A stretch of DNA of 64,000 nucleotides from Parabacteroides distasonis ATCC 8503 (lineage in GTDB: Bacteria > Bacteroidota > Bacteroidia > Bacteroidales > Tannerellaceae): positions 1,325,501 to 1,389,500 of the forward strand of contig NC_009615.1 of NCBI RefSeq assembly GCF_000012845.1, read 5' to 3'. Each line of letters begins with the position of its first letter. Within the stretch, counting starts at the first letter, position 1. This document shows positions 22,436-58,939 of this stretch, one piece after another. A program made the position numbers and the translations under genes. The notes beneath the pieces are model-generated. The model ran no database searches, was not told where the DNA came from, and worked only from the letters and a program-made list of their open reading frames with translations.

Positions 22436-22456
22436 ATACTTAGGTGACGAACCGGG

Positions 22457-22570
22457 TGGCATATGGGTGGCATAGCTGTGCCATCCTTATGGCACGCCCT
22501 TGCCATCGTTGTGGCACGGCTATGCCACCAGCATGGCACGACTGTGCCAATGCTATGGAAATGACTGGCA
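22457..22570. repeat. 11-nt phased array of TGGCA/TGCCA words
   Basis: The pentamer TGGCA or its complement TGCCA begins at 22457, 22468, 22479, 22490, 22501, 22512, 22523, 22534 and 22545, exactly every 11 nt, with a degenerate TGGAA at 22556 and a last TGGCA at 22566. From 22468 on the two orientations alternate, so neighbours can pair as TGGCA-N6-TGCCA hairpins repeated every 22 nt. It lies 31 nt past the helicase stop codon. Confidence 0.9.
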
Positions 22571-42199: not shown

Positions 42200-42215
42200 G
42201 AAACACCTTGATTCA

Positions 42216-42303
42216 TGCCTATATAGGTAAGAGGCCACACGGATATCGGCGTAACCCCTTACCTATATAGGCACAGGGCCACGCCGATACTCGCGTAGTG
42301 TCA
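42216..42303. repeat. 44-bp direct repeat of palindromic words on a 22-nt grid
   Basis: Two diverged 44-bp copies (42216-42259 and 42260-42303) fill the gap between convergent genes. The palindrome CCTATATAGG occurs at 42218 and 42262, and GATATC (42242-42247) is centred midway, so three palindrome centres lie exactly 22 nt apart. GGCCAC recurs at 42233 and 42277. TGCCTATATAGGTAAG (42216-42231) is the exact reverse complement of 42258-42273. The second copy runs into the pabC stop codon. Confidence 0.85.
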
Positions 42304-42915
42304 TACGTATATACGTGTGATCTCATCGATTTCGCCGAACCCGATCAAGGCGTTAAACAGACGGATCCGGGTATACTTAGGCAGATCCTCTACCGGGATA
42401 TCCTCGGCCTGTACCAAGCCTTTATCCAATAAGTAAGCACGCATCGTACCACATAACAAAGGGCGTGCGGGAGTGATCCAAGAGGTGCCATTCCAAAGGG
42501 CGACATTGCAAATGGAAGTATCGGTCAGCAAACCGTCACGGATGATCAGGATATCGTCATGCCCCCCTCGTTGGGCGAATAAATCATTTAAGCATTGGCG
42601 ATCCGTACTCTTATAGGAATAATCGATCTCATCGCATGTAACCAATCGCAAGGAATGAACCGGACGCATACGGTAAGGAACGTATTCTACCTGTAAGACC
42701 TCGCGGGTATATTCCACCCGGCATTTGGTACGTTCTTGATGAGGCCCCGGATGAATATAACCCGCGAGATCAATTTCTTCTCTCGCTCCGAATAGCTCCC
42801 TGCGGGTACGGTTCATACGGGCATTATGGTACGGAAGGTTATGTATCCGTCCCCTCTCGATACGGATCGTCTCCACAAACGGACTCCCTGATAAGGTCTC
42901 AATAGATGGGCACAT
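42301..42915 (-). CDS. pabC: Aminodeoxychorismate lyase-like class IV aminotransferase
   Basis: 204 residues, shorter than E. coli PabC (about 270) but within the range of Bacteroidales homologues. Class IV aminotransferase features: FVETIRIERGRIHNLPYHNARM at the start (positions 13-34), the lysine-containing strand EYTREVLQVEYVPY, GGHDDILIIRDGLLTDTSIC, and the late IPVEDLPKYTRIRLFNALIG. It splits 4-amino-4-deoxychorismate into p-aminobenzoate and pyruvate for folate synthesis. It overlaps pabB by 17 nt, which supports the assignment. It is the last gene of the operon. Confidence 0.85.
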   Translation of the reverse strand: MCPSIETLSGSPFVETIRIERGRIHNLPYHNARMNRTRRELFGAREEIDLAGYIHPGPHQERTKCRVEYTREVLQVEYVPYRMRPVHSLRLVTCDEIDYSYKSTDRQCLNDLFAQRGGHDDILIIRDGLLTDTSICNVALWNGTSWITPARPLLCGTMRAYLLDKGLVQAEDIPVEDLPKYTRIRLFNALIGFGEIDEITRIYV

Positions 42916-47168: not shown

Positions 47169-47202
47169 GCCGCGAAGATACGGATATTTCGATTTATTTT
47201 CC

Positions 47203-47210
47203 TACTTTTG
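47203..47210 (+). promoter_or_regulatory. -7 box of the cas operon
   Basis: TACTTTTG fits TAnnTTTG and lies 28 nt before the cas3 ATG at 47239. No TTTG was found about 20 nt upstream. It is the only candidate for the whole seven-gene operon. Confidence 0.55.
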
Positions 47211-47238
47211 TAAGGTATAACCTTATGAATCTAATCAA

Positions 47239-49464
47239 ATGGAAACAGAGAAACAGTTGATATCCCATTTATACCAAAACAAAGAAAATGGAAAATGGAT
47301 AATACAAACCAACGATGAACATCAAAGGGGTGTTGCAGAAATGGCAACCTCCTTTTCTGGACTGTTCGGACTTCCATCTTGGGGGCATACGCTTGGAATG
47401 CTTCACGACAAAGGAAAAGAGCGTGATGCATTTCAGCAATATATCCGTACGACAAGCGGTCTGCCTGTGACTGACGAAAAATCGTATGGAGAGCATCATC
47501 ATGCGTTTGTAGGTGGAATATTGGTAACGAACCTTATGGGGAAGAGTGTATTCAATCTTCTTGCCAACCAGATAATCTCTCATCATACAGGCCTACATGA
47601 TTATGTAGATGCGGAGAGCGTCATAGAGAAAAGGCAACTTCCCGAAGAGATAAACAAAGGGGACATAGCTCTGAATATACCCCAGTTGAGAAAAGAACTT
47701 CTTGAATCTCCTTTTTCTAAACTTAAGGTGGACATGAAGCATTTTCATCACCTTTCCCGCATGCTTTTTTCCTGTCTTGTGGATGCCGACAGACTCAATA
47801 CAGAGCAATTTATGGATGTAGAATCGTGGGAAAAACGGGGATGCTCGTCTACACTCACTGACTTATTGCCAAAATTGGAGGCGCATTTACGTGAACTGCA
47901 ATTGTATGCACCCGATACAGAAGTGAACCACATTCGCAAGAAAGTACAGGAACGATGCCGTAAAGCTTCTTCTGAAGAGAAAGGATTCTATAGCCTTACG
48001 GTACCAACGGGAGGCGGCAAGACTCTTTCATCGTTGTTGTGGGCCATGAAGCATGCTGTAAATCACGGTATGAATCGTATTATCATTGCCATCCCATACA
48101 CTAGTATTATTGTGCAGACGGCAGGCCTCTTGAAAGAAATCTTCGGCGAAGAGCACGTACTGGAGCATCATAGTAACTTTAATCCTGATGAGATAAAGAA
48201 TGAAGAGGTACGTGAGAAGGCAAAGCTGGCCACGGAAAACTGGGATTATCCGATTATCGTTACGACCAATGTTCAGCTGTTTGAGTCAATGTTTAGCAAC
48301 AAACCGTCCGATTGCCGTAAATTGCACAATATCGTGAATTCAGTTCTTATTTTGGATGAAGCGCAGACATTGCCGACTGATTTCTTACAACCGATAGTGG
48401 ATGCACTTAAAGCATATCAGAAAATATTCGGAGTGTCGGTACTGTTTACCACTGCCAGTCAGCCGGTACTTAGCGGACTGATAGAAGGAACTAATCCTAA
48501 GGCCAATTTTGAGGGAATAGACCGTATTATTGAAATCATACCGAATGAGTTTGCTTTGCATGACAAGCTTCGTCGTGTGAAGTTAGTAATAGACAACACA
48601 GGAAAGACATACGATGAGATTGCCGCCGAAGTTGCTATATATAATAAGGTATTATGTATCGTAAATACCCGAAAGGATGCCAAGGAACTGTATGACCGTT
48701 TACCTAATGAAGGAATAAAGCTCCATCTATCGAGAATGATGTGTCCCGCCCATATCAGTGAAACCATACGGAAGGTCAAGGCATTGCTGAAAGATAAATC
48801 ACATCCGATTGTCAGAGTGATAGCTACCCAGCTTGTAGAGGCAGGGGTGGATATAGATTTCCCTGTTGTATTTCGACAGGAATCAGGTCTTGACTCTATT
48901 TTACAGGCAGCGGGGCGTTGTAACCGTGAAGGAAGAAATACTGTTGGTACCACATTTGTGTTCAGTCTCGCCGCAGAGAAACGTATTCCATTTGGGGCAA
49001 TGAAGGCTGCAAACAATGCACGATTGAATTTGCCTGCAAATAGTGATTGGTTTGACCCTTCTACGATGACAGAGTATTTTTATCAGTTGTATTGCAGGAA
49101 AAACACGTTTGACGATAAGGATATGAAACATTATCTTTATAACCCTAATGAGTTATGTTTTGAAACGGCATCAAAGAAGTTCAGATTGATTGATGATGAT
49201 TGTATGAATATCATTGTAAATTGGGGGAACAGCATGGAGCTTGTGGAAAAACTGAAAGAATCTGGCTGTACCTATCCCTTGATGAAGCAACTGGCTAAAT
49301 TTACAGTAGGCGTTCATAGTTCCGATTTTGACAAGTTGGTCAGCTATGGTGCTATTGAAGAAGTATTAGAGGGTATCTATGTGTTGACAGACAGGGTACA
49401 GTATGACAAAAATACGGGTCTTAGCCTTGATAACCACTGGATGGAAGAGCTATTAATGATATAA
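47239..49464 (+). CDS. cas3: Type I-C CRISPR helicase-nuclease Cas3
   Basis: 741 residues. An N-terminal HD nuclease domain has His50, His56-Asp57 (LGMLHDKGK), His86 to His88 (GEHHHAF) and His115-His116/His120 (ISHHTGLHD). The SF2 helicase follows: Walker A PTGGGKT (258-262 for GGGKT), DEAQ box (373-376), TTASQP, and motif VI region ATQLVEAGVDIDFP and AAGRCNREGR. Cascade recruits it to the target, where it unwinds and degrades DNA. It is first in the operon, 6 nt before cas5c. All catalytic residues look intact. Confidence 0.97.
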   Translation: METEKQLISHLYQNKENGKWIIQTNDEHQRGVAEMATSFSGLFGLPSWGHTLGMLHDKGKERDAFQQYIRTTSGLPVTDEKSYGEHHHAFVGGILVTNLMGKSVFNLLANQIISHHTGLHDYVDAESVIEKRQLPEEINKGDIALNIPQLRKELLESPFSKLKVDMKHFHHLSRMLFSCLVDADRLNTEQFMDVESWEKRGCSSTLTDLLPKLEAHLRELQLYAPDTEVNHIRKKVQERCRKASSEEKGFYSLTVPTGGGKTLSSLLWAMKHAVNHGMNRIIIAIPYTSIIVQTAGLLKEIFGEEHVLEHHSNFNPDEIKNEEVREKAKLATENWDYPIIVTTNVQLFESMFSNKPSDCRKLHNIVNSVLILDEAQTLPTDFLQPIVDALKAYQKIFGVSVLFTTASQPVLSGLIEGTNPKANFEGIDRIIEIIPNEFALHDKLRRVKLVIDNTGKTYDEIAAEVAIYNKVLCIVNTRKDAKELYDRLPNEGIKLHLSRMMCPAHISETIRKVKALLKDKSHPIVRVIATQLVEAGVDIDFPVVFRQESGLDSILQAAGRCNREGRNTVGTTFVFSLAAEKRIPFGAMKAANNARLNLPANSDWFDPSTMTEYFYQLYCRKNTFDDKDMKHYLYNPNELCFETASKKFRLIDDDCMNIIVNWGNSMELVEKLKESGCTYPLMKQLAKFTVGVHSSDFDKLVSYGAIEEVLEGIYVLTDRVQYDKNTGLSLDNHWMEELLMI

Positions 49465-49469
49465 AAAAA

Positions 49470-50159
49470 ATGAATAATATGGACTATACAGATAAAGAAT
49501 ATTGCTTGGAAGTATGGGGTGACTGGGCTTGTTTCAGTCGCCCTGAATTGAAAGTAGAGCGTGTGAGCTATGATGTTATTACACCTTCTGCGGCACGTGC
49601 CATTTTTGAAGCAATACTTTTCAAACGCTATGCCATGCGTTGGCAAGTGACGAAAATAGAAGTTCTTAATCCTATCAAGTGGACTACCATCAGGAGAAAT
49701 GAGGTAGGAGCATTGGCGGGTAAGTCCTCAATCTTTATTGAAGATAAACGACAACAGAAGAATTCTTTGCTTTTGCAAGGTGTGCGCTATCGTATTCACG
49801 CAAAGCTGGTTTTTATTCCGGTAAAAGATCGACCAAAGGAGGCTTTTATCAAACATCAGCCAAGTGATGATGAGAATCCGATGAAATATTATCAGATGTT
49901 TGAACGCAGAGCATCGCAAGGACAATGTTTCACCCAGCCGTATCTTGGTTGCCGTGAGTTTGCCGCAAATTGGAAGTATATTGATAATACGGAACAACTT
50001 GCCCCTCCTTTGGCTGAAGATAGGGATTTGGGTATCATGCTTTATGATATGGATTTTGAAGGGAATGTACAGAAACCTAATGCCATGTTTTATCGTGTAA
50101 GAATGGAGCAAGGTGTGATTGTCGTACCAGATAAAGATAGCGAGGAGGTGCTGAGATGA
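49470..50159 (+). CDS. cas5c: Type I-C Cas5c (Cas5d) pre-crRNA endoribonuclease
   Basis: 229 residues. The N-terminus CLEVWGDWACFSRPELKVER is characteristic of Cas5 of subtype I-C, followed by SYDVITPSAARAIFEAILFK and the G-rich end of the RAMP fold. In I-C systems this protein replaces Cas6: it cuts pre-crRNA in the repeat and stays on the 5' handle within Cascade. An alternative start nine nt on (MDYTDKEYC) is possible. Its stop overlaps the cas8c start (ATGA). Confidence 0.95.
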   Translation: MNNMDYTDKEYCLEVWGDWACFSRPELKVERVSYDVITPSAARAIFEAILFKRYAMRWQVTKIEVLNPIKWTTIRRNEVGALAGKSSIFIEDKRQQKNSLLLQGVRYRIHAKLVFIPVKDRPKEAFIKHQPSDDENPMKYYQMFERRASQGQCFTQPYLGCREFAANWKYIDNTEQLAPPLAEDRDLGIMLYDMDFEGNVQKPNAMFYRVRMEQGVIVVPDKDSEEVLR

Positions 50160-51874
50160 TACTAAAAGCATTGTATGATTATTACCATCGGAGTGGTAAT
50201 TTACCCATTATGGGAATGGAGTTAAAGGAAATAGGTTTTATCATCGTTATTGATAAGTGTGGTAATTTCTTACGTTTTGAAGACAGGCGTATAGACAAAA
50301 AGTCTGCGCAACAGTTTCTTGTTAAGAAGAGTGTAGGTCGTTCAAGTGCCCCTGTTGCAAACTATTTGTACGACAATAGCCAATATGTATTTGGTTATTC
50401 CGACAAAGGGGACATGGAAAGCATGCGCAAGTATTTTGATACATTCAAAGCGAAGGTTGAAGAAATATACGACATGTTTTCAGATAATGAAACCATGCAG
50501 GCTGTTTATGCGTTTTATCAACAAGAGCCTTCAGATATAGTTGAAGCCATGCAGAATGATTCTCTTTGGGATGATATAAACAAGAATCTCAATAAAAAAT
50601 ATTCCACTTTCTCTTTTCTTATAGAAGGAGATACGGAAATAGTGGCTTCTAAGCGCAAACTAATAAACTTAGAATCGGGTGGTAATGATGTTGGTGGAGG
50701 TCTTTGTTTAGTAATAGGCAAACATTCAAAAACCGTAGAGGTTACAACCGCTACAATGATTCCGGGAAGTCAGGCTACAGCTAAACTTGTCGCTTTTCAA
50801 GTCAATTCCGGATATGATTCGTATGGTAAGTCAAAGGGGCATAATGCTCCTATATCTGAAGAGGCTGAATTTGCTTATACTACAGCATTGAATCATTTAT
50901 TGCGTTCTGATTCGCATAATAAATTTATGGTAGGTTCACGCACATACCTGTTTTGGGCTTCTTCTGATAGTGAGGCTGCAAAGAAATCTGAAGATAGTTT
51001 GTTTGCTTTGTTGGGGCGTACAGAAGAAAACGATGATCCTAACATGCTCATAAAATTGGTGCGACGTACATTCATGTCTATCTATAACGGAGTATTGTTC
51101 GCAAACAAAGATGACAAATTCTTTATATTAGGTTTGGCTCCCAATTCAGCCCGAATAGCGGTGGTGTATTGGAATGAATTGCCATTGCGTGAGTTTGCCG
51201 GCTTAATCAGTAAACATTTCGCAGATATGGAGATTGTTGATACACGTAAAGACAAGAAACCGTATGTAGGATTACATTCCATCCTCGGAAATGTTACTCT
51301 TGGAGGGAAGTCAAGCGATGCTACGCCCAATCTTCCAGATGCTGTAGTGAAAAGCATCTTCCAAGGACTTCCGTATCCGGCTTCTCTGTTTCAGGCTTGC
51401 ATTCGCCGCATACGTGCTGAACAATCAGTCAACATTGGTCGTGCAGCCATCATCAAGGCTTATCTTAATCGATTAAATGATAATAATAACAATAAAAAAC
51501 TCGATATTATGTTAGACAAAGAAAATCAAAATCAAGGGTATCTTTGTGGAAGGTTGTTTGCTGTTCTCGACAAGATACAGGAAGACGCAAATAACATTCA
51601 TTCCATTCGTGAGCGTTACATGAATTCCGCATCGGCCACTCCGGCTATGATTTTTGCCACTATCCTAAATCTTTCCACTCATCATCAGGAGAAGCTGAAT
51701 GAGGGTAAACAGGTGTTTTATGAGAAATTGAAACAGGAAATCATTTCCAAACTTGACGCAAACGGTTTTCCTGCACATCTAGATCTTCAAGACCAAGGGC
51801 GCTTTTTTGTAGGATATTATCATCAGCGGCAAGCGTTCTTCATGGGTAAAGAGAACAGAGAAACAGAAGAGTAA
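50156..51874 (+). CDS. cas8c: Type I-C Cascade large subunit Cas8c
   Basis: 572 residues, Csd1 family. N-terminus MILKALYDYYHRSGNLPIMG; conserved pieces include SYGKSKGHNAPISEEAEFAY (at about 223-242) and a later PFPAS-like segment QGLPYPASLFQACIRRIRAE. It recognises the PAM and positions the target strand. The start overlaps the cas5c stop by four nt. The C-terminal third is set off by an Asn-rich linker (DNNNNKK) and probably also yields a separate small subunit by internal initiation. Confidence 0.95.
   Translation: MILKALYDYYHRSGNLPIMGMELKEIGFIIVIDKCGNFLRFEDRRIDKKSAQQFLVKKSVGRSSAPVANYLYDNSQYVFGYSDKGDMESMRKYFDTFKAKVEEIYDMFSDNETMQAVYAFYQQEPSDIVEAMQNDSLWDDINKNLNKKYSTFSFLIEGDTEIVASKRKLINLESGGNDVGGGLCLVIGKHSKTVEVTTATMIPGSQATAKLVAFQVNSGYDSYGKSKGHNAPISEEAEFAYTTALNHLLRSDSHNKFMVGSRTYLFWASSDSEAAKKSEDSLFALLGRTEENDDPNMLIKLVRRTFMSIYNGVLFANKDDKFFILGLAPNSARIAVVYWNELPLREFAGLISKHFADMEIVDTRKDKKPYVGLHSILGNVTLGGKSSDATPNLPDAVVKSIFQGLPYPASLFQACIRRIRAEQSVNIGRAAIIKAYLNRLNDNNNNKKLDIMLDKENQNQGYLCGRLFAVLDKIQEDANNIHSIRERYMNSASATPAMIFATILNLSTHHQEKLNEGKQVFYEKLKQEIISKLDANGFPAHLDLQDQGRFFVGYYHQRQAFFMGKENRETEE
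51509..51874 (+). CDS. cas11c: Probable internal translation product Cas11c
   Basis: An ATG at 51509, in frame with cas8c (codon 452), would give 121 residues starting MLDKENQNQGYLCGRLF and running to the cas8c stop. In other I-C systems the small Cascade subunit Cas11c is made this way, at about this size. The codons just before the ATG form an A+T-rich low-complexity stretch (51475-51508, encoding DNNNNKKLDI), the kind of unstructured leader that favours initiation in Bacteroidota. This is inferred from family knowledge; the sequence alone cannot prove use of the start. Confidence 0.55.
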   Translation: MLDKENQNQGYLCGRLFAVLDKIQEDANNIHSIRERYMNSASATPAMIFATILNLSTHHQEKLNEGKQVFYEKLKQEIISKLDANGFPAHLDLQDQGRFFVGYYHQRQAFFMGKENRETEE

Positions 51875-51900
51875 TAACAAACAATTAAAAATATACAGTT

Positions 51901-52752
51901 ATGTCAGAAATTAAGAACAGAATCGATTTCGTTTACATCTTTGATGTGCAAGACGGTAATCCGAATGGAGACCCTGATGCAGGTAATCTTCCCCGTGTAG
52001 ATGCAGAAACGGGTATGGGGCTTGTTACAGATGTTTGCCTTAAACGTAAGGTACGTAATTATGTACAAGTGGCAAAAGGTTTGGAAGATGGCTACGATAT
52101 ATTCATTAAGGAGAAGGCTGTTTTAAACACTTTGATTGATAAAGCGCATGATGATTCTGAGGTAAAAAATGCTAAAGATAAGACTGATGCTGCACGTCGT
52201 TTTATGTGCAAGAACTATTTTGATGTTAGAACATTTGGTGCTGTGATGTCAACCGGCAAGAATGCAGGGCAGGTACGTGGCCCAATCCAGTTTACCTTTG
52301 CCCGTTCTGTAGATCCAATTGCTGCGGCAGAACATTCTATAACCCGTATGGCTGTGGCAACAGACGCTGAAGCTAAGAAACAAAGTGGTGACAACCGCAC
52401 AATGGGACGTAAAGCTACCGTACCTTACGGTCTCTACATCTGTCACGGCTTCATTTCTGCCAACCTTGCCCAACAAACAGGCTTTTCAGAAGAAGACCTT
52501 GCGCTGTTCTGGGAAGCCCTGAAGAACATGTTCGATATGGATCGTTCGGCTGCACGCGGATTGATGAGTGCACAGAAATTGATTGTTTTCAAACATGATT
52601 CTGTATTGGGTAATGCCCCTGCCAACAAACTATTTGACTTGGTTAAGGTAGAGAAGGTGTGCGATGGAGCACCACGTTCATTCGGTGATTACCATGTCAC
52701 GATAGACAAGGAACATGTCCCATCAAATGTTACTGTAGAGGAACTGATATAA
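51901..52752 (+). CDS. cas7c: Type I-C Cascade backbone Cas7c
   Basis: 283 residues, Csd2/Cas7 family. The start [20 protein letters not shown] followed by [20 protein letters not shown] is the family signature. Other parts are [20 protein letters not shown] and [12 protein letters not shown]. Several copies coat the crRNA spacer in the Cascade filament. It is 26 nt downstream of cas8c and 11 nt before cas4. Confidence 0.97.
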
Positions 52753-52763
52753 AACAAAAGACA

Positions 52764-53429
52764 ATGTATAGCGAAGACGATATGCTCATGTTGTCGGGGA
52801 TTCAGCACTTCAGGTTCTGTCCCCGGCAATGGGCTTTGATTCACATTGAGCAGCAATGGGATGATAACCGTCTCACCATAGAGGGACAGATTCTGCATAA
52901 ACATGTGGATGACCCGTTCTATAGACAGAAATGTGGAGATCAAATAACATTGCGTGCAGTGAATATCGCTTCGCGTGAGTTGGGGCTCTATGGCATTTCC
53001 GATGCCATAGAGTTGCTACCTTCTCCATCTTTGGAAGATACGATCTTGCATCCTAAATATCCAGGACGTTGGCGACCGGTGGCTGTGGAGTATAAGCATG
53101 GCAGACCCAAAAAGGATGAAGTGGATGAAGTGCAGTTGGCGGCACAAACGATGTGTCTTGAAGAAATGTACGCAATCCATATACCCTACGGTGTGTTCTT
53201 TTATGGAGAACTTCGTCATCGGATAGAGGTGGCTATAACAGATGAGTTGCGCAATATCGTCAGACAATGCGCCAGGGATATGCATGAAATATTCAGTAAG
53301 GCTGTTATCCCAAAAGCAAAATATGAACGACATTGCGACAAATGCTCATTGAAAGAAATCTGTATGCCGACGATAGCCAAGAATTGTACCACGGTAGATA
53401 CTTACCTCAATAAACACTTATATACATGA
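52764..53429 (+). CDS. cas4: Cas4 adaptation exonuclease
   Basis: 221 residues, RecB-like PD-(D/E)XK nuclease with an iron-sulfur cluster. Cys19 (FRFCPRQW) and Cys191, Cys194, Cys200 (HCDKCSLKEICMP) form the cluster site. The nuclease core shows HKHVDDPF, GISDAIEL and VAVEYKHGRPK. With Cas1-Cas2 it trims prespacers and helps select PAM-adjacent fragments. Its stop overlaps the cas1 start by four nt. Confidence 0.96.
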   Translation: MYSEDDMLMLSGIQHFRFCPRQWALIHIEQQWDDNRLTIEGQILHKHVDDPFYRQKCGDQITLRAVNIASRELGLYGISDAIELLPSPSLEDTILHPKYPGRWRPVAVEYKHGRPKKDEVDEVQLAAQTMCLEEMYAIHIPYGVFFYGELRHRIEVAITDELRNIVRQCARDMHEIFSKAVIPKAKYERHCDKCSLKEICMPTIAKNCTTVDTYLNKHLYT

Positions 53430-54448
53430 GAAAATTGTTGAATACTTTGTATGTGACGACACCTGAAGCCTATCTGAGTAAGGATGGGCAGAATGTCGTA
53501 GTATCAGTCAAGCAAGAGGAAGTGTTCCGTATTCCTGCGATAAACATAGAAGGCATTGTGACGTTCGGATATATGGGCGCAAGTCCGGGCGTGATGAAAT
53601 TGTGTAGTGACAATAGCATATCACTTACATTCCTATCTCCTCATGGCAGATTTATCAGCAGGGTACAGAGCGCAACGAAAGGGAATGTACTGTTACGCAA
53701 GAGACAATATCAATTGTCGGATGATGAATCCTGGTCATTACATGTGGCACGACTGATGATTGGTGGTAAGATTCAAAACTATCGTAATATATTAAAGAGA
53801 TATATTCGTGATTATGGAGAGAATGAAAACATTAATCGGGCGGTACAAGTGTTGGAACATGCCAAGCGTGAAGCTTTGGCGACCCAAGATAAGACGACCC
53901 TAATAGGGTATGAAGGCATGGCTTCAAATGCCTATTTTGAAGTGTTGCCTGTTTTGATACTTAATCAGAAGGCTGATTTCCCGTTTCATGGCCGGAATCG
54001 CCGTCCTCCTAAAGATGCAGTGAATGCCATGTTGTCTTTTGCTTATACTTTGATTGCTAATGATACATCTGCCGCACTCGAAACAGTTGGCCTTGATCCA
54101 TACGTAGGATTTCTCCATACACTTCGTCCGGGACGTACATCCTTAGCATTGGATATGATGGAAGAATTGCGAGCCTATCTTGGTGATCGTTTTGTCTTGT
54201 CGTTGATTAATAAAAGACAGATAACATCCAAGGATTTTTTGTTTCAAGGTGATAATGGGGTTGTTATGACGGATAAAGGGAAAAAGACATTTATTTCCGC
54301 ATGGCAGGCAAGGAAAAGGGAGGTGATAATCCATCCTTATCTTAATGAAAAAATAGAGATAGGGCTTCTGCCTTATGTACAGGCCATGTTGATGGCAAGA
54401 TATATCAGGCAAGATATTGATAATTATCCGGTATTTCTAATAAAATGA
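53426..54448 (+). CDS. cas1: Type I-C Cas1 integrase
   Basis: 340 residues. N-terminus MRKLLNTLYVTTPEAYLSKDG is typical of Cas1c. The metal-binding catalytic region is intact: TTLIGYEGMASNAYF (Glu), GFLHTLRPGRTSLALDMMEEL (His and Asp/Glu). It inserts new spacers at the leader end of the array in complex with Cas2. The gene overlaps cas4 by four nt and precedes cas2 by 9 nt. Confidence 0.97.
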   Translation: MRKLLNTLYVTTPEAYLSKDGQNVVVSVKQEEVFRIPAINIEGIVTFGYMGASPGVMKLCSDNSISLTFLSPHGRFISRVQSATKGNVLLRKRQYQLSDDESWSLHVARLMIGGKIQNYRNILKRYIRDYGENENINRAVQVLEHAKREALATQDKTTLIGYEGMASNAYFEVLPVLILNQKADFPFHGRNRRPPKDAVNAMLSFAYTLIANDTSAALETVGLDPYVGFLHTLRPGRTSLALDMMEELRAYLGDRFVLSLINKRQITSKDFLFQGDNGVVMTDKGKKTFISAWQARKREVIIHPYLNEKIEIGLLPYVQAMLMARYIRQDIDNYPVFLIK

Positions 54449-54457
54449 TTTACGATT

Positions 54458-54748
54458 ATGCATATTCTTGTGACTTATGATGTGGATACTACGAGCAAAG
54501 AAGGAGCTCGCCGCCTACGACATGTGGCTAAGGCTTGCATAGATTATGGCCAAAGGGTACAGAATTCTGTCTTTGAGTGTGAGGTGACAGAAGCACAATA
54601 TTGTCTCTTGATTGAACGAATCAAGCGTATTATTGATATGTCTCTTGATAGCGTTAGATTTTATATTCTCAATAAAAACGAGAATAAAAGGGTAAAAGTG
54701 ATAGGTGTTGAAACTGCTTACAAAGTTAATAATGCTCTTATCATATAA
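54458..54748 (+). CDS. cas2: Cas2
   Basis: 96 residues. The N-terminal beta strand MHILVTYDVDT with the conserved Asp, then RLRHVAKACIDYGQRVQNSVFECEV, is typical of Cas2 from I-C systems. It is the structural core of the Cas1-Cas2 integrase. It is the last cas gene; the CRISPR leader starts right after its stop. Confidence 0.96.
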   Translation: MHILVTYDVDTTSKEGARRLRHVAKACIDYGQRVQNSVFECEVTEAQYCLLIERIKRIIDMSLDSVRFYILNKNENKRVKVIGVETAYKVNNALII

Positions 54749-54917
54749 TTTATGCGAATGTAGAGTATTACGAAAAAAGTAGTATTTTCGCACCCCTTAA
54801 TAATTAGCAGATTAACCCGTCTTTAAGGCGATTGCAGCCATTAAGCTGAAATAAAAATGAGAATTCGCATATTAATAGGTCTAATTTATTGACTTATAAT
54901 ATGTAACTTTGCACAGT
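54749..54917 (+). promoter_or_regulatory. CRISPR leader with -7 box
   Basis: A 169-nt A+T-rich segment between cas2 and the first repeat. TAACTTTG (54904-54911) fits TAnnTTTG, so transcription would begin about at the first repeat base. The -33 region is weak. TTCGCACCCC at 54788-54797 matches the first part of the repeat (TCGCACCCC) and could be a repeat remnant or an integrase anchor. Confidence 0.75.
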
Positions 54918-55210
54918 GTCGCACCCCGTGTGGGTGCGTGGATTGAAACCAATGTCTTCGGGGTATATTCCTTGCCTTGATAGGTCGCACCCCGTGTGGG
55001 TGCGTGGATTGAAACTTGCCATGATATTAGTTTTTAATGTTATTTATTGTCGCACCCCGTGTGGGTGCGTGGATTGAAACCTCCAGTACCTTTTTAAGCT
55101 GATATAGGCTCAAGTCGCACCCCGTGTGGGTGCGTGGATTGAAACATGGCCTTGAGGTCGTTGTGCCCTGTCCATCTCGTCGCACCCCGTGTGGGTGCGT
55201 GGATTGAAAC
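54918..55210 (+). CRISPR. Type I-C CRISPR array, five repeats and four spacers
   Basis: Five identical 32-bp repeats start at 54918, 54984, 55049, 55114 and 55179. Each begins GTCGCACCCC and ends GGATTGAAAC, the typical I-C pattern; GCACCC and GGGTGC form the hairpin that Cas5c would recognise. The four spacers are 34, 33, 33 and 33 nt (54950-54983, 55016-55048, 55081-55113, 55146-55178). The last repeat is not degenerate. Orientation is set by the leader and cas genes to the left, so the spacer at 54950 is the newest. The array is very short for an intact system. Confidence 0.98.
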
Positions 55211-55215
55211 ATTTG

Positions 55216-55266
55216 TAAAGCGCAAGCTTTTTCATAAAAGATATACTTACGTGATGAAGTATATCT
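55216..55266 (+). terminator. Two hairpins after the CRISPR array
   Basis: AAAGC-GCAA-GCTTT followed by TT (55216-55231, GNRA-type loop), then AGATATACTT (55239-55248) pairing with AAGTATATCT (55257-55266) across an 8-nt loop. Either may end the crRNA precursor. The remaining segment to 55431 holds no gene that I can see, only a weak -7-like TATATTCG (55403-55410) before the next gene. Confidence 0.5.
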
Positions 55267-55431
55267 TCTATGGGACTTGAAGTGTTCTTCTGCGACGAAG
55301 GGATTAGTACTTCGTAAAAATAACTTTTTAAAGTCACTGACACTGACATATAATTTCGCTTAGTTATTTCTGCAAAAATCATTCATATGTAAACAAGTTT
55401 CGTATATTCGCGACCTTATAATAGTTTAAAT

Positions 55432-55908
55432 ATGGCAGAGGAACTACGGATTAAAAATGGTGATAAACAGGAAATGTATGAGACGTTGCTCCCGCAAATC
55501 GCCTCATTGGTAGGTAACGAGACCGACCTAATCGCTAACATGGCGAACGTCGCCGCAGCACTCAAGCAAACTTTCGGTTTCTTTTGGGTGGGTTTCTACC
55601 GGGTCATAGACAATCAGTTGGTATTAGCGCCTTTTCAAGGCCCTATCGCCTGTACACGAATCAAATACGGAAAAGGGGTATGCGGCACGGCTTGGAAGGA
55701 GACCCGTACGATCATCGTACCGGATGTAGACGCTTTCCCGGGACATATCGCTTGTAGCTCGGCGTCACGCTCTGAGATCGTAGTTCCCGTGATATGGGCG
55801 GATAAGGTAATCGCTGTCCTTGATATAGACAGTGATCAACCGGATAGTTTCGATGAGACTGATCAGATCTTTTTGGAAAAGATAGTGGAATTGCTTCCTC
55901 ATCAGTAA
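55432..55908 (+). CDS. msrC: Free methionine-(R)-sulfoxide reductase (GAF domain)
   Basis: 158 residues, a single GAF domain. Cys74, Cys84 and Cys108 have the same spacing (10 and 24) as Cys84, Cys94 and Cys118 of the E. coli enzyme, with the surrounding motifs FQGPIACTRI, GKGVCGTAW and GHIACSSASRSEIVVP. It reduces free methionine-R-sulfoxide using thioredoxin, in the cytosol, as protection against oxidants. It stands alone, ending 11 nt before a palindromic repeat array and convergent with the AddB-like gene. Confidence 0.93.
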   Translation: MAEELRIKNGDKQEMYETLLPQIASLVGNETDLIANMANVAAALKQTFGFFWVGFYRVIDNQLVLAPFQGPIACTRIKYGKGVCGTAWKETRTIIVPDVDAFPGHIACSSASRSEIVVPVIWADKVIAVLDIDSDQPDSFDETDQIFLEKIVELLPHQ

Positions 55909-55918
55909 GCCTCGCCTC

Positions 55919-56051
55919 AGTACTTCCCAAGAAGTACTGTAGTACTGCCTAAGAGGTACTGCAGTACTTTGTAAGGAGTACTCCAGTACTCTCCGAAGAA
56001 ATACCACAGTACTTCGCAAGGAGTACTCCGGTACTCTCCCTGAAGTACCGG
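55919..56051. repeat. 22-bp tandem repeat array of AGTACT palindromes
   Basis: Six units (starting 55919, 55941, 55963, 55985, 56008, 56030; the fourth is 23 bp, the rest 22 bp) follow the pattern AGTACTnnnnAAGnAGTACT plus two bases. GTAC cores are therefore spaced alternately 14 and 8 nt. The first unit can fold as AGTACTT, loop CCCAAG, AAGTACT; the others fold likewise with minor mismatches. The array fills the gap between two convergent stop codons (55908 and 56060). Confidence 0.93.
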
Positions 56052-56059
56052 GACAAATG

Positions 56060-58939
56060 CTACTTACCGCAAATACCCTTAAATGGACAATAAGAACAAG
56101 CCTTCCCCGTAGGGGTTTGCGTAAAGGGAATTTCCGGATTGAAGATCTCGTCCAAGCAGCCCCGCAGCCCCTCCTCGAACGCTTGGGCATAACCGGAGAA
56201 ATCCTCTACCTTCTCCGACTTCCCCCGTTCGATACGGTGGTAGACCGATGGGTCGAACGGATCGGCGAAAAGGGAACGGACGTAATAAATGCCCGGTTGT
56301 ATCGTCTTTCCTTTGTTCTCGGTGAGATGGGCGTACATCCAGCAATACATGAATACCTGCATCACGGCTTTCGCACGATCTTTCTCCTCCTTGTTGAATA
56401 GGCTCTCGATACTACTGAAAGTCGTAGTTCCGCTACCGCTCTTGTAATCGATGATACGGATAGCGTCGCGAACCTCGTCCACACGGTCGATAAAGCCTTT
56501 CAACCGGATCTCGGAATAGTCGGAAAGGCTGATCAGACCGTTTATCTTACGCTCGGACTCGATGTAAACGAAAGGGGTCAGCTTGCCGTCACGCTCCAAG
56601 ATTTTCTCCACGTATTTGCGGATCATCTCGCCGATCAGGTAGTTTTGTCCGGTAAGGGAGCGAACCACCTCTGTCTTGAAAAACTCGCTGGCGAAAGCCC
56701 GGGCGATAGCTCCGGTAAGCAAGGCCGTATCCTTACGGATCGCTTTCAGCAAATCCACAGTAACCATCTTCCCTTGGAACGGCTTGTAAAGCTCCTCCAT
56801 CACTTTATGTAAGATACTTCCGAATACATCGCTCTCGATCGTCTCGCTCACCTCCTCTTCCTCTCGAATGCCTTCCACAACGGAAAAATAGAATTTCAAC
56901 GGGCAATCCAGATACGTATTGATAGCGCTCGCCGAGATCGCCTTGCTCCCCCCTTTCCGGTAAGCGTCTAAACGGCGCATGATATCCTCCCTTTTCGGCA
57001 CGGCCAATGGCGGGGTCTTGGAGGAAGATACGTTATAGACCACCAATTTATCTCGCATCGGCACCTCGTAATGATAATGCAGCTGGTGAACAAAGCGACT
57101 TACCTCTCCCGTCTGCAATCCGTTGCTGCGGGTATCGTATAAAAGGCTCACGTGGCTGGCACGCTCTATCAAACGATAGAAATGGTAGGCCCATACGCTA
57201 TCTTGATGCTCGTAGGTAGGCAACCCGAAACCCCTGCGTAGGTTATAAGGGATAAAGGAGTTCGCCGCTTTCCGCTGCGGGAAAATACCCTCGTTCATGG
57301 ATAAGATAATCAGACGGTCGAAATCCAAGGCACGGGTCTCGAGCACACCCATAATCTGGAGGCCGGAAAGCGGCTCGCCGTGGAAGGGGATCGTGATCGT
57401 ATCAGTCACCCGCTTCAATAGGCGGAAGAAGGTATCTATTTTCATCTCTATACGAGCGTCTTTCATTACCTCTTTCATGCGGTTTACCGTGGTGAAATAA
57501 TGGAAGATGAACTCTTGCTCCAAATCGTTCGTCCGCTGGGGTGCGTCCTCCTCTTCCTCATCGGAAAGGGCGGACATAACCTTGTTCAGCTCTTCCAACA
57601 CCTTGATCAGATAGTCCGAGAAGGCCTCCACCCCGGTCACCGGCGTGAACAGGATTTCTAGCAAAGGCGTTTTCCCTAACTCCGTATGCGAGATATAGAT
57701 CTTGTTGTTCTCCGTGATCTCTTTCACCAAGGAGGAAATAATCTCCGGTGAGGTGGAGAGGATGTAGCGATGGTTCAATACCGGCAGCACGTCGCGGAAA
57801 TAGAACAACGGATTCCGGTCTATGTAGCGTACGTTCTTCTGCAACGCCAAGATATACTCGATCAACGAGGCGACCGGGGTTCCCGCCAAGGGATAACCCA
57901 TCGTGACGTTGATACGCCGGATTTGCTCCGGTATGGCGTTCAGCACCGGGATCAGCAGATGTTCATCGGGCAAGATCACCGCCGTACGCAGGGCTTCTTC
58001 CGAACTCATCTCCGCTTCCTTGCACCAATCGCTCAACAGGGTGTAGACGTGCTTGGCCTGCCCGATACCGGAAGGGATGCCGATCACCTCGATCTCGGTC
58101 TTTACCTTCTCCTCGGGGGGTAATTTCATCGAGGAAGGGAAGCTCTTCCGGTTACGGGAGACGAAATAAGAGGCCTTATTATCCGGATCGGTTACCTTAT
58201 CGGATACATAATCCCAATAGAAATCCGCTATCTTCCGCTTCTGCAACTGGGCTAAGAAACGTTCTTCCGATACGGACAAGGCGTTCAAACCGACAAAGAC
58301 AATTTGCTCGTAAGGTAAATCCGGAGACTCGCCCCGTTCCATGCTTTCCACGACCTCCCGGAAGATCATGCCCTCGTAGCCTTTTCCCTCGGCGGCCAAG
58401 GTCGCACGGAATTCCTCATAGAGATCGTATAGCACTTGCCAGACCGCCAAGAACTGTTGCTGGTTCGGCGTATCGCCCCGGGGATAAAAACTGGACCAGA
58501 AACTACGGATAGCGGCGATCTGCTCATCACTTAAGAAATCGAAATCATTCTCTATCTCCCGTAGGTCCGTCACGTTACTGAATAGCATGCGGGCATTTGC
58601 CATGTATTTATCGATATCGTCGAAGTCGTTGAGCAACATCTCGCCCCAATACAGGAATTCATCGAAAGTCTCGGTGGAACCGCTTTGGCGGATGTAGATG
58701 TCGTACAGGGTAAAAAGCATACTGATCCGGTCGGCGGATTGTTTTCCGCTCAACTGGATAAAGAGATCGTTGATCGTAAGGATTGTCGGAGAGAAAAGGG
58801 GAATATCGGCTACCTCCGAGAGATATTTCTGGAAGAAAAGTCCCGTACGCCGGTTTGGGAAAACAAAGGCCAGACGACTGACCTCCGCTCCCCATTTCTC
58901 GTAAAAAAGAGACGCTACTTGATATAAGAACGGTTTCAT
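56060..58939 (-). CDS. AddB-like PD-(D/E)XK nuclease-helicase subunit
   Basis: 959 residues. The N-terminal inactivated helicase-like part starts RLAFVFPNRRTGLFFQKYL. Near the C-terminus is a RecB-like nuclease: SAINTYLDCPLKFYFSVVEG, FGSILHKVMEELY, LKGFIDRVDEV and IRIIDYKSGSG. Cysteines in CPLKF and in CSYCPFKGICGK fit the AddB-type iron-sulfur cluster. With an AddA partner it would process double-strand breaks for recombination and degrade foreign linear DNA. No addA gene lies next to it here: an aldo/keto reductase is upstream and msrC is convergent downstream. Confidence 0.87.
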   Translation of the reverse strand: MKPFLYQVASLFYEKWGAEVSRLAFVFPNRRTGLFFQKYLSEVADIPLFSPTILTINDLFIQLSGKQSADRISMLFTLYDIYIRQSGSTETFDEFLYWGEMLLNDFDDIDKYMANARMLFSNVTDLREIENDFDFLSDEQIAAIRSFWSSFYPRGDTPNQQQFLAVWQVLYDLYEEFRATLAAEGKGYEGMIFREVVESMERGESPDLPYEQIVFVGLNALSVSEERFLAQLQKRKIADFYWDYVSDKVTDPDNKASYFVSRNRKSFPSSMKLPPEEKVKTEIEVIGIPSGIGQAKHVYTLLSDWCKEAEMSSEEALRTAVILPDEHLLIPVLNAIPEQIRRINVTMGYPLAGTPVASLIEYILALQKNVRYIDRNPLFYFRDVLPVLNHRYILSTSPEIISSLVKEITENNKIYISHTELGKTPLLEILFTPVTGVEAFSDYLIKVLEELNKVMSALSDEEEEDAPQRTNDLEQEFIFHYFTTVNRMKEVMKDARIEMKIDTFFRLLKRVTDTITIPFHGEPLSGLQIMGVLETRALDFDRLIILSMNEGIFPQRKAANSFIPYNLRRGFGLPTYEHQDSVWAYHFYRLIERASHVSLLYDTRSNGLQTGEVSRFVHQLHYHYEVPMRDKLVVYNVSSSKTPPLAVPKREDIMRRLDAYRKGGSKAISASAINTYLDCPLKFYFSVVEGIREEEEVSETIESDVFGSILHKVMEELYKPFQGKMVTVDLLKAIRKDTALLTGAIARAFASEFFKTEVVRSLTGQNYLIGEMIRKYVEKILERDGKLTPFVYIESERKINGLISLSDYSEIRLKGFIDRVDEVRDAIRIIDYKSGSGTTTFSSIESLFNKEEKDRAKAVMQVFMYCWMYAHLTENKGKTIQPGIYYVRSLFADPFDPSVYHRIERGKSEKVEDFSGYAQAFEEGLRGCLDEIFNPEIPFTQTPTGKACSYCPFKGICGK

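Follow-up and report, generated by a model that had tools for sequence, protein, structure and literature searches.

Hairpin chains of 22-bp pitch in Parabacteroides distasonis: a dispersed intergenic repeat and one of many sequence families

What defines the known dispersed palindromes is their sequence, together with a transposase that reads it. According to the available text of a study on REPs, these are short intergenic palindromes that occur mostly in unidirectional or convergent gaps, are sometimes clustered, bear a tag (GTAG or CGTC) and are associated with Y1 transposases (PMC3733652). For Porphyromonas gingivalis, the available text of another study describes BrickBuilt, a MITE built around a 23-nt tandem repeat, with 19 copies in strain ATCC 33277, leader and tail segments, IS5-like terminal inverted repeats, only one family of sequences and between 1 and 22.8 units per copy (PMC4596501). 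The same source reports MITE464/PgRS and tandem repeats of 22, 23 and 41 nt for P. gingivalis W83. The preliminary description of the array reported here had mentioned 22-bp tandem repeats in Porphyromonas genomes, and this lead was borne out by the repeats described there (PMC4596501). A search of open-access literature revealed no description of the present arrays in Parabacteroides.

The window, i.e., the whole stretch of 64,000 nucleotides that was analyzed (1,325,501-1,389,500 of a genome that consists of one contig of 4,811,379 bp), contains an array of hairpins between two converging genes. The array had been described as filling the 151-bp gap between the converging stop codons, and the ORF ends agree with this. 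The features of the window are as follows:

22449..22569, no strand: second array, TGCCA/TGGCA family, period 22
42204..42325, no strand: third array, CGTATATACG/CCTATATAGG family, lag 44, between converging genes
55432..55908, + strand: GAF-domain protein gene (Pfam GAF_2 and GAF; msrC in the preliminary description), the product of which we take to be fRMsr-like
55909..56059, no strand: convergent intergenic gap of 151 bp with the array, delimited by ORF ends
55919..55938, no strand: hairpin 1 (AGTACT, 8-nt loop, AGTACT)
55941..55960, no strand: hairpin 2, exactly duplicated in strain TSDC17.2
55963..55982, no strand: hairpin 3
55985..56005, no strand: hairpin 4 (9-nt loop, second word degenerate)
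56008..56027, no strand: hairpin 5
56030..56049, no strand: hairpin 6
56060..58939, - strand: PD-(D/E)XK nuclease gene (Pfam PDDEXK_1; addB in the preliminary description)

Six complete hairpins are present at 55919-56049, each of the form AGTACT-N8-AGTACT or close to it, with a 2-nt junction between neighbors. TRF yielded a period of 22, 5.3 copies and a score of 108. The units had been called near-identical and 22 bp long; six hairpins of period 22 were indeed found, but the similarity among the units is only about 72% (TRF), with conserved words and variable loops, and unit 4 has a length of 23 bp. The proposed alternation of 14 and 8 nt holds for ten of the eleven word spacings (14, 8, 14, 8, 14, 8, 15, 8, 14, 8, 14), the exception being one spacing of 15. 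Loop bases ending in AAG, which had also been noted, are restricted to this array and are not a feature of the family. In silico folding of the gap (55909-56059) as RNA resulted in z-scores of -6.7 (+ strand) and -7.5 (- strand), and none of 200 shuffles was as good for either strand. Rfam gave no match above the gathering score in the whole window. A CRISPR-Cas stretch adjoins the array (47199-55402; Cas1 found; type I-C according to the TSDC17.2 annotation); it is missing at the matching place in another Parabacteroides genome (G016).

The preliminary description had proposed a search for variable unit numbers among isolates, and such variation was found. Three strains have 7, 6, and 4 units, and a close relative has none. 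P. distasonis TSDC17.2, the contigs of which were deposited as plasmids, has 7 units, including one exact extra unit of 22 bp, and P. distasonis NM39_I3 (L103) has 4 units and is 45 bp shorter. In Parabacteroides sp. ZJ-118, the nuclease of which is 95% identical, the array is absent and the two genes overlap; instead of a site at which the array was never inserted, this could be the result of a deletion. Among 24 loci inspected, the nuclease gene is followed by an AGTACT array only in L103; at L113, two GAGAGTACTCTC words occur at a distance of 22 bp. The named matches of the array at 55919-56049 are from P. distasonis. Four relatives thus differ at this locus, with 7, 6, 4, and 0 units, and the arrays are candidate strain markers. 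The array is present in other assemblies too, and neither a coding repeat nor a known mobile element was found for it; confinement to one assembly and either of these identities had been named as possible objections.

The array is not the only one of its family. A 26-base GTAC pattern had 27 matches in this genome, compared to none for the reversed control, and revealed AGTACT arrays at 8 loci. These counts and the folding z-scores place the array well outside chance expectation. The pattern was matched in 18 of 59 genomes, in many of them only once, and the control also had one or two hits in several genomes. Multiple matches in array form were found in this genome (G000) and in 4 of 34 other Parabacteroides genomes (G003, G009, G016, G025). 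The TGCCA family has about 11 loci in this genome, with 81 matches at no more than 2 mismatches versus 7 for the control, and among the 59 genomes it was found in G000, G016, G021, and G023, with one match in G018. The claim that the period of the AGTACT array is twice that of the array at 22457 had to be abandoned: the dyad centers of the latter are mostly 11 bp apart, but its direct period is also 22 (TRF), and therefore both arrays have the same pitch. Altogether, the finding is real and larger than first described.

A phage origin was considered and rejected, as 50,697 phage records contained no match to the array at 55919-56049 and IMG/VR contained none to the TGCCA pattern. The AGTACT pattern was found in 5 IMG/VR stretches, and two of these, L240 (2234-2304) and L239 (7222-7376), look like genuine AGTACT arrays, on contigs of viral or host DNA. 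At L029 (4970-5110) of TSDC17.2, and at L035, the annotated pbpC gene starts upstream of an AGTACT array and thus covers it. The start of pbpC is probably annotated too early; the alternative is that the array is translated.

The wider distribution of arrays was quantified by a scan for tandem similarity at lags of 8-60 that covered the window plus 60 further stretches, each of 20 kb (together 1.264 Mb, of which 114.5 kb were non-coding according to a simple ORF caller). The stretches were chosen with prior knowledge of the AGTACT and TGCCA loci, of which they contain only those of the window itself. The scan revealed 49 non-coding arrays, and 48 of them had a period of 21-23 or double that value. 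The lag was 22 in 35 cases, 23 in 8, 21 and 24 in 1 each, and 42 and 44 in 2 each. In coding DNA, the same scan gave 12 hits with mixed lags, three of them at 21-22. When the first 864 kb were shuffled three times, the only hits were 3 at lag 8. From 200 kb of E. coli sequence, a single hit was obtained, at lag 48, with none at 21-23 or double. Extrapolation leads to a genome total of roughly 186 arrays. For clustering, the 49 arrays were combined with 16 arrays from targeted loci; average linkage was used instead of single linkage, which merged too much. The 65 arrays formed 22 clusters, 12 of which contained at least 2 loci; because the cut is arbitrary, the number of about 20 families is approximate. 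The number of units was counted for 47 arrays and was 3 in 4 arrays, 4 in 12, 5 in 23, 6 in 4, and more than 6 in 4. The peak at five units persists although fewer units suffice for detection, and one shuffle gave none. For two arrays, a shared process or function that does not depend on the sequence had been proposed; the shared pitch, the approximately 20 word clusters and the five-unit peak support the shared architecture on which this proposal was based.

The arrays also have defined ends. Five genomes contributed 25 AGTACT arrays, and 46 of their 50 ends are formed by complete hairpins in loop phase (p = 4e-10 if the ends are independent, although some of the arrays are orthologous). Of the 13 arrays from the P. 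distasonis group, 9 contain exactly one hairpin with a 9-nt loop and none contains two, whereas such a hairpin occurs in none of the 12 arrays of G003 and G009. In four arrays of five hairpins it is the fourth hairpin (three arrays) or the second (one array), and its position varies in the other five. This placement suggests an ancestral element of five hairpins that is read in either direction. The 9 AGTACT arrays of G003 have core lengths of 108 bp (6 arrays), 130 bp (2), and 94 bp (1). Five of them share a first hairpin with CATGC[CT]GAA, and four G003 arrays that were compared are 74-83% alike. Copies at separate G003 loci have hairpins and ends in common but not their flanks, apart from two of the nine arrays (L191 and L249), which have a common flank in this incomplete assembly. 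Target-site duplications were not seen by eye in G003. Of the 10 TGCCA arrays of G023, 8 have TTTTGCCA at the start and 6 have TGGCAAAA at the end. RNA tetraloops were not supported, because the 99 loop centers are mixed, with TA the commonest at 22. Two arrays (L093 8828 and L160 3951) lie within duplicated surroundings that are 95-97% identical on both sides.

Among the elements found, BrickBuilt is the closest described one, compared by its description (PMC4596501). It stems from the same order and is likewise a dispersed, intergenic, imperfect tandem repeat with a copy-variable number of units. As far as the available text goes, its unit has 23 nt; the period is 22 in the array at 55919 and 23 in some other Parabacteroides families. 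The W83 repeats, of 22-23 nt or nearly twice 21, resemble the Parabacteroides arrays in unit length, as lags of 41-44 occur here as well. By that description, BrickBuilt also shows differences. Its leader and tail have no counterpart in Parabacteroides: comparison of 148 flanks of 150 bp yielded 6 matching pairs, mostly shared genes or duplicated stretches, and no family-wide leader or tail. BrickBuilt has IS5-like terminal inverted repeats, and the terminal sequences seen in Parabacteroides were short GCC/GGC ends in G003 (at both ends in 5 of 9 arrays, at one end in the other 4). BrickBuilt is one family, compared to about 20 here, and has 1 to 22.8 units, whereas five are typical of the Parabacteroides arrays. 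The 8 AGTACT loci and the 49 non-coding arrays resemble REPs and BIMEs in being dispersed, intergenic and made of short palindromes. In contrast to REPs as described in the available text (PMC3733652), they comprise many families at one pitch, and a shared tetranucleotide tag such as GTAG or CGTC was not seen by eye in the flanks of 20 AGTACT arrays. A Y1 transposase domain (Y1_Tnp, PF01797) had no match in this genome at E<=0.001, whereas the control was found in 5 of 14 named genomes, including E. coli. Membership in the REP/RAYT system was rejected because no match to a Y1 transposase was found.

The evolution of the arrays was analyzed with orthologous pairs from G000 and G016. Of 15 pairs, 11 were counted; L042 was left out because it could not be aligned, and window 22430, L040, and L049 because of poor flank anchoring. 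Substitutions amounted to 10/300 in words, 14/100 in loops and spacers and 27/475 in flanks for AGTACT, and to 4/120, 19/144, and 32/304, respectively, for TGCCA. Words evolved about fourfold more slowly than loops (p = 0.0003 for AGTACT, p = 0.004 for TGCCA). With both families pooled, words were slower (p = 0.003) and loops plus spacers faster (p = 0.007) than flanks; for the AGTACT words alone, the difference to the flanks was not significant (p = 0.17). Changes on both sides of a pair occurred six times: two were clean Watson-Crick swaps, one a gain and one a loss of pairing, and two remained unpaired. Matching of the arms by double change is thus seen but rare. At one orthologous TGCCA array (L041/L220), the spacers differ almost throughout and most words and the spacing are kept, within loci that are 91% identical overall.

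The large indels between orthologues comprised 22, 23, 44, 44, and 45 bp, i.e., whole units, besides nine indels of 1-3 bp. Together with the exact duplicate in TSDC17.2, this is what would be expected if the arrays were simple minisatellites, in which slippage lengthens and shortens a palindromic seed in situ and neither an element nor a function is involved. However, slippage does not explain why one word occurs at many loci, why about 20 words have a pitch of 21-23 bp, why the unit number peaks at five, or why the arrays end on whole hairpins, and we regard this explanation as highly improbable.

In summary, the repeat is dispersed, ends on whole hairpins, gains and loses whole units, and its stem words evolve more slowly than its loops. 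We consider it rather probable that the array at 55919 represents a single copy of a REP/BrickBuilt-like element that is dispersed, non-coding and non-autonomous, that is a chain of complete 22-bp hairpins directly following one another, usually about five, that spreads as a discrete element and that belongs to one of many sequence families in Parabacteroides. The spread might be mediated by a trans-acting transposase or proceed through a single-strand intermediate; a transposase linked to the arrays was not found, and no copy was observed while moving. Hairpin-templated correction, purifying selection or both may keep the arms matched while the loops drift, and copies may persist where they are least harmful, above all between converging genes, where they might act as insulators of convergent transcription or influence the 3' ends of mRNAs. 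Mobility alone leaves the constant pitch across unrelated families unexplained.

The positions of the arrays were not uniform. Of the gaps of at least 100 bp in the 1.264-Mb sample, 50 were convergent, 179 tandem and 95 divergent, and arrays were present in 14, 17 and 11 of these, respectively; the enrichment in convergent gaps versus all others (28 of 274) was significant (p = 0.002). The position at gene ends that had been ascribed to the arrays is therefore a preference and not a rule. With this frequency in convergent gaps, the arrays are relevant to the reading of gene ends in Parabacteroides. The enrichment, the dyad centers mostly 11 bp apart and the conservation of words next to free loops are in agreement with arrays that serve as binding platforms, in which one or more putative proteins or paralogues would read dyads spaced by approximately one turn of the helix (10.5-11.5 bp), for example a nucleoid or gyrase-like factor between converging genes, and the words would be kept as half-sites. 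Nevertheless, about 20 unrelated words would need equally many readers or one sequence-blind reader, and periods of 22-23 fall out of phase across five units; binding platforms appear unlikely.

Action in the RNA was also considered, in which chains of hairpins in 3'-UTRs or between convergent transcripts would block exonucleases or aid termination. The strong folding of both strands of the array at 55919 would fit, and in 27 arrays in tandem context G-U pairs outnumbered A-C on the sense strand by 81:44 (65.7 expected from composition, p = 0.007), with 18 arrays for, 5 against and 4 tied. However, this excess did not recur in a second set, 13 tandem arrays of other genomes (23:19 with 23.4 expected; pooled over both sets 104:63, p = 0.024), and the folding energy of the sense strand was not significantly more stable (17 of 27 arrays, p = 0.55). 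Canonical terminators (hairpin plus T-run) were found at 7 of 24 convergent ends with an array versus 19 of 70 without, and at 8 of 14 tandem ends with an array versus 53 of 182 without, showing that arrays do not replace intrinsic terminators at these ends. Arrays also occur in divergent gaps. Because of the lacking energy bias, terminator replacement and replication, an RNA role is not claimed; function at 3' ends is suggestive in the first genome only, and is kept as a quite improbable alternative to the dispersed element.

The presence of the class in other genomes was analyzed by tandem similarity. In 22 Parabacteroides/Tannerella loci (388 kb), 11 non-coding arrays were found, 8 of them at lags of 20-24 or 40-46, compared to 5 arrays and 1 at these lags in 33 loci of other Bacteroidota (619 kb). 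In 19 same-genus stretches (337 kb), 8 of 12 arrays were at these lags, four of them with a period of 21. By tandem similarity, the class is concentrated in the Parabacteroides/Tannerella family. Different word families at one gene in different species were found in one case (a 73% identical protein with AGTACT in G003 and a GCCCAT family in G000); as only 4 gene-level matches were obtained, about the guessed chance level, word replacement at the same gene is not claimed.

The shared step and unit number despite unrelated words hint that the chains are made or read by a shared agent that gauges shape and not sequence, and with about 20 unrelated words at a common pitch, and mostly a common unit number, in one genome, the constraint looks physical. 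We tentatively raise the possibility of a Parabacteroides superfamily of hairpin chains that is defined by geometry (about five units, a pitch of 21-23 bp, one dyad per helical turn) and not by sequence. One sequence-blind generator or reader of hairpin length or dyad phase would make or keep all chains, and the superfamily would be related to BrickBuilt and to the Porphyromonas repeats of 22 and 41 nt. New families might arise by joint drift of both stem arms, as a TGGCAC-to-TGGCAG difference at a junction between species suggests. For a gut commensal, this raises the question of what measures 22 bp. Some other Parabacteroides genomes contain AT-rich arrays with a lag of 14 (L202 4190, L203 4188, L106 2047, and L121 10011).
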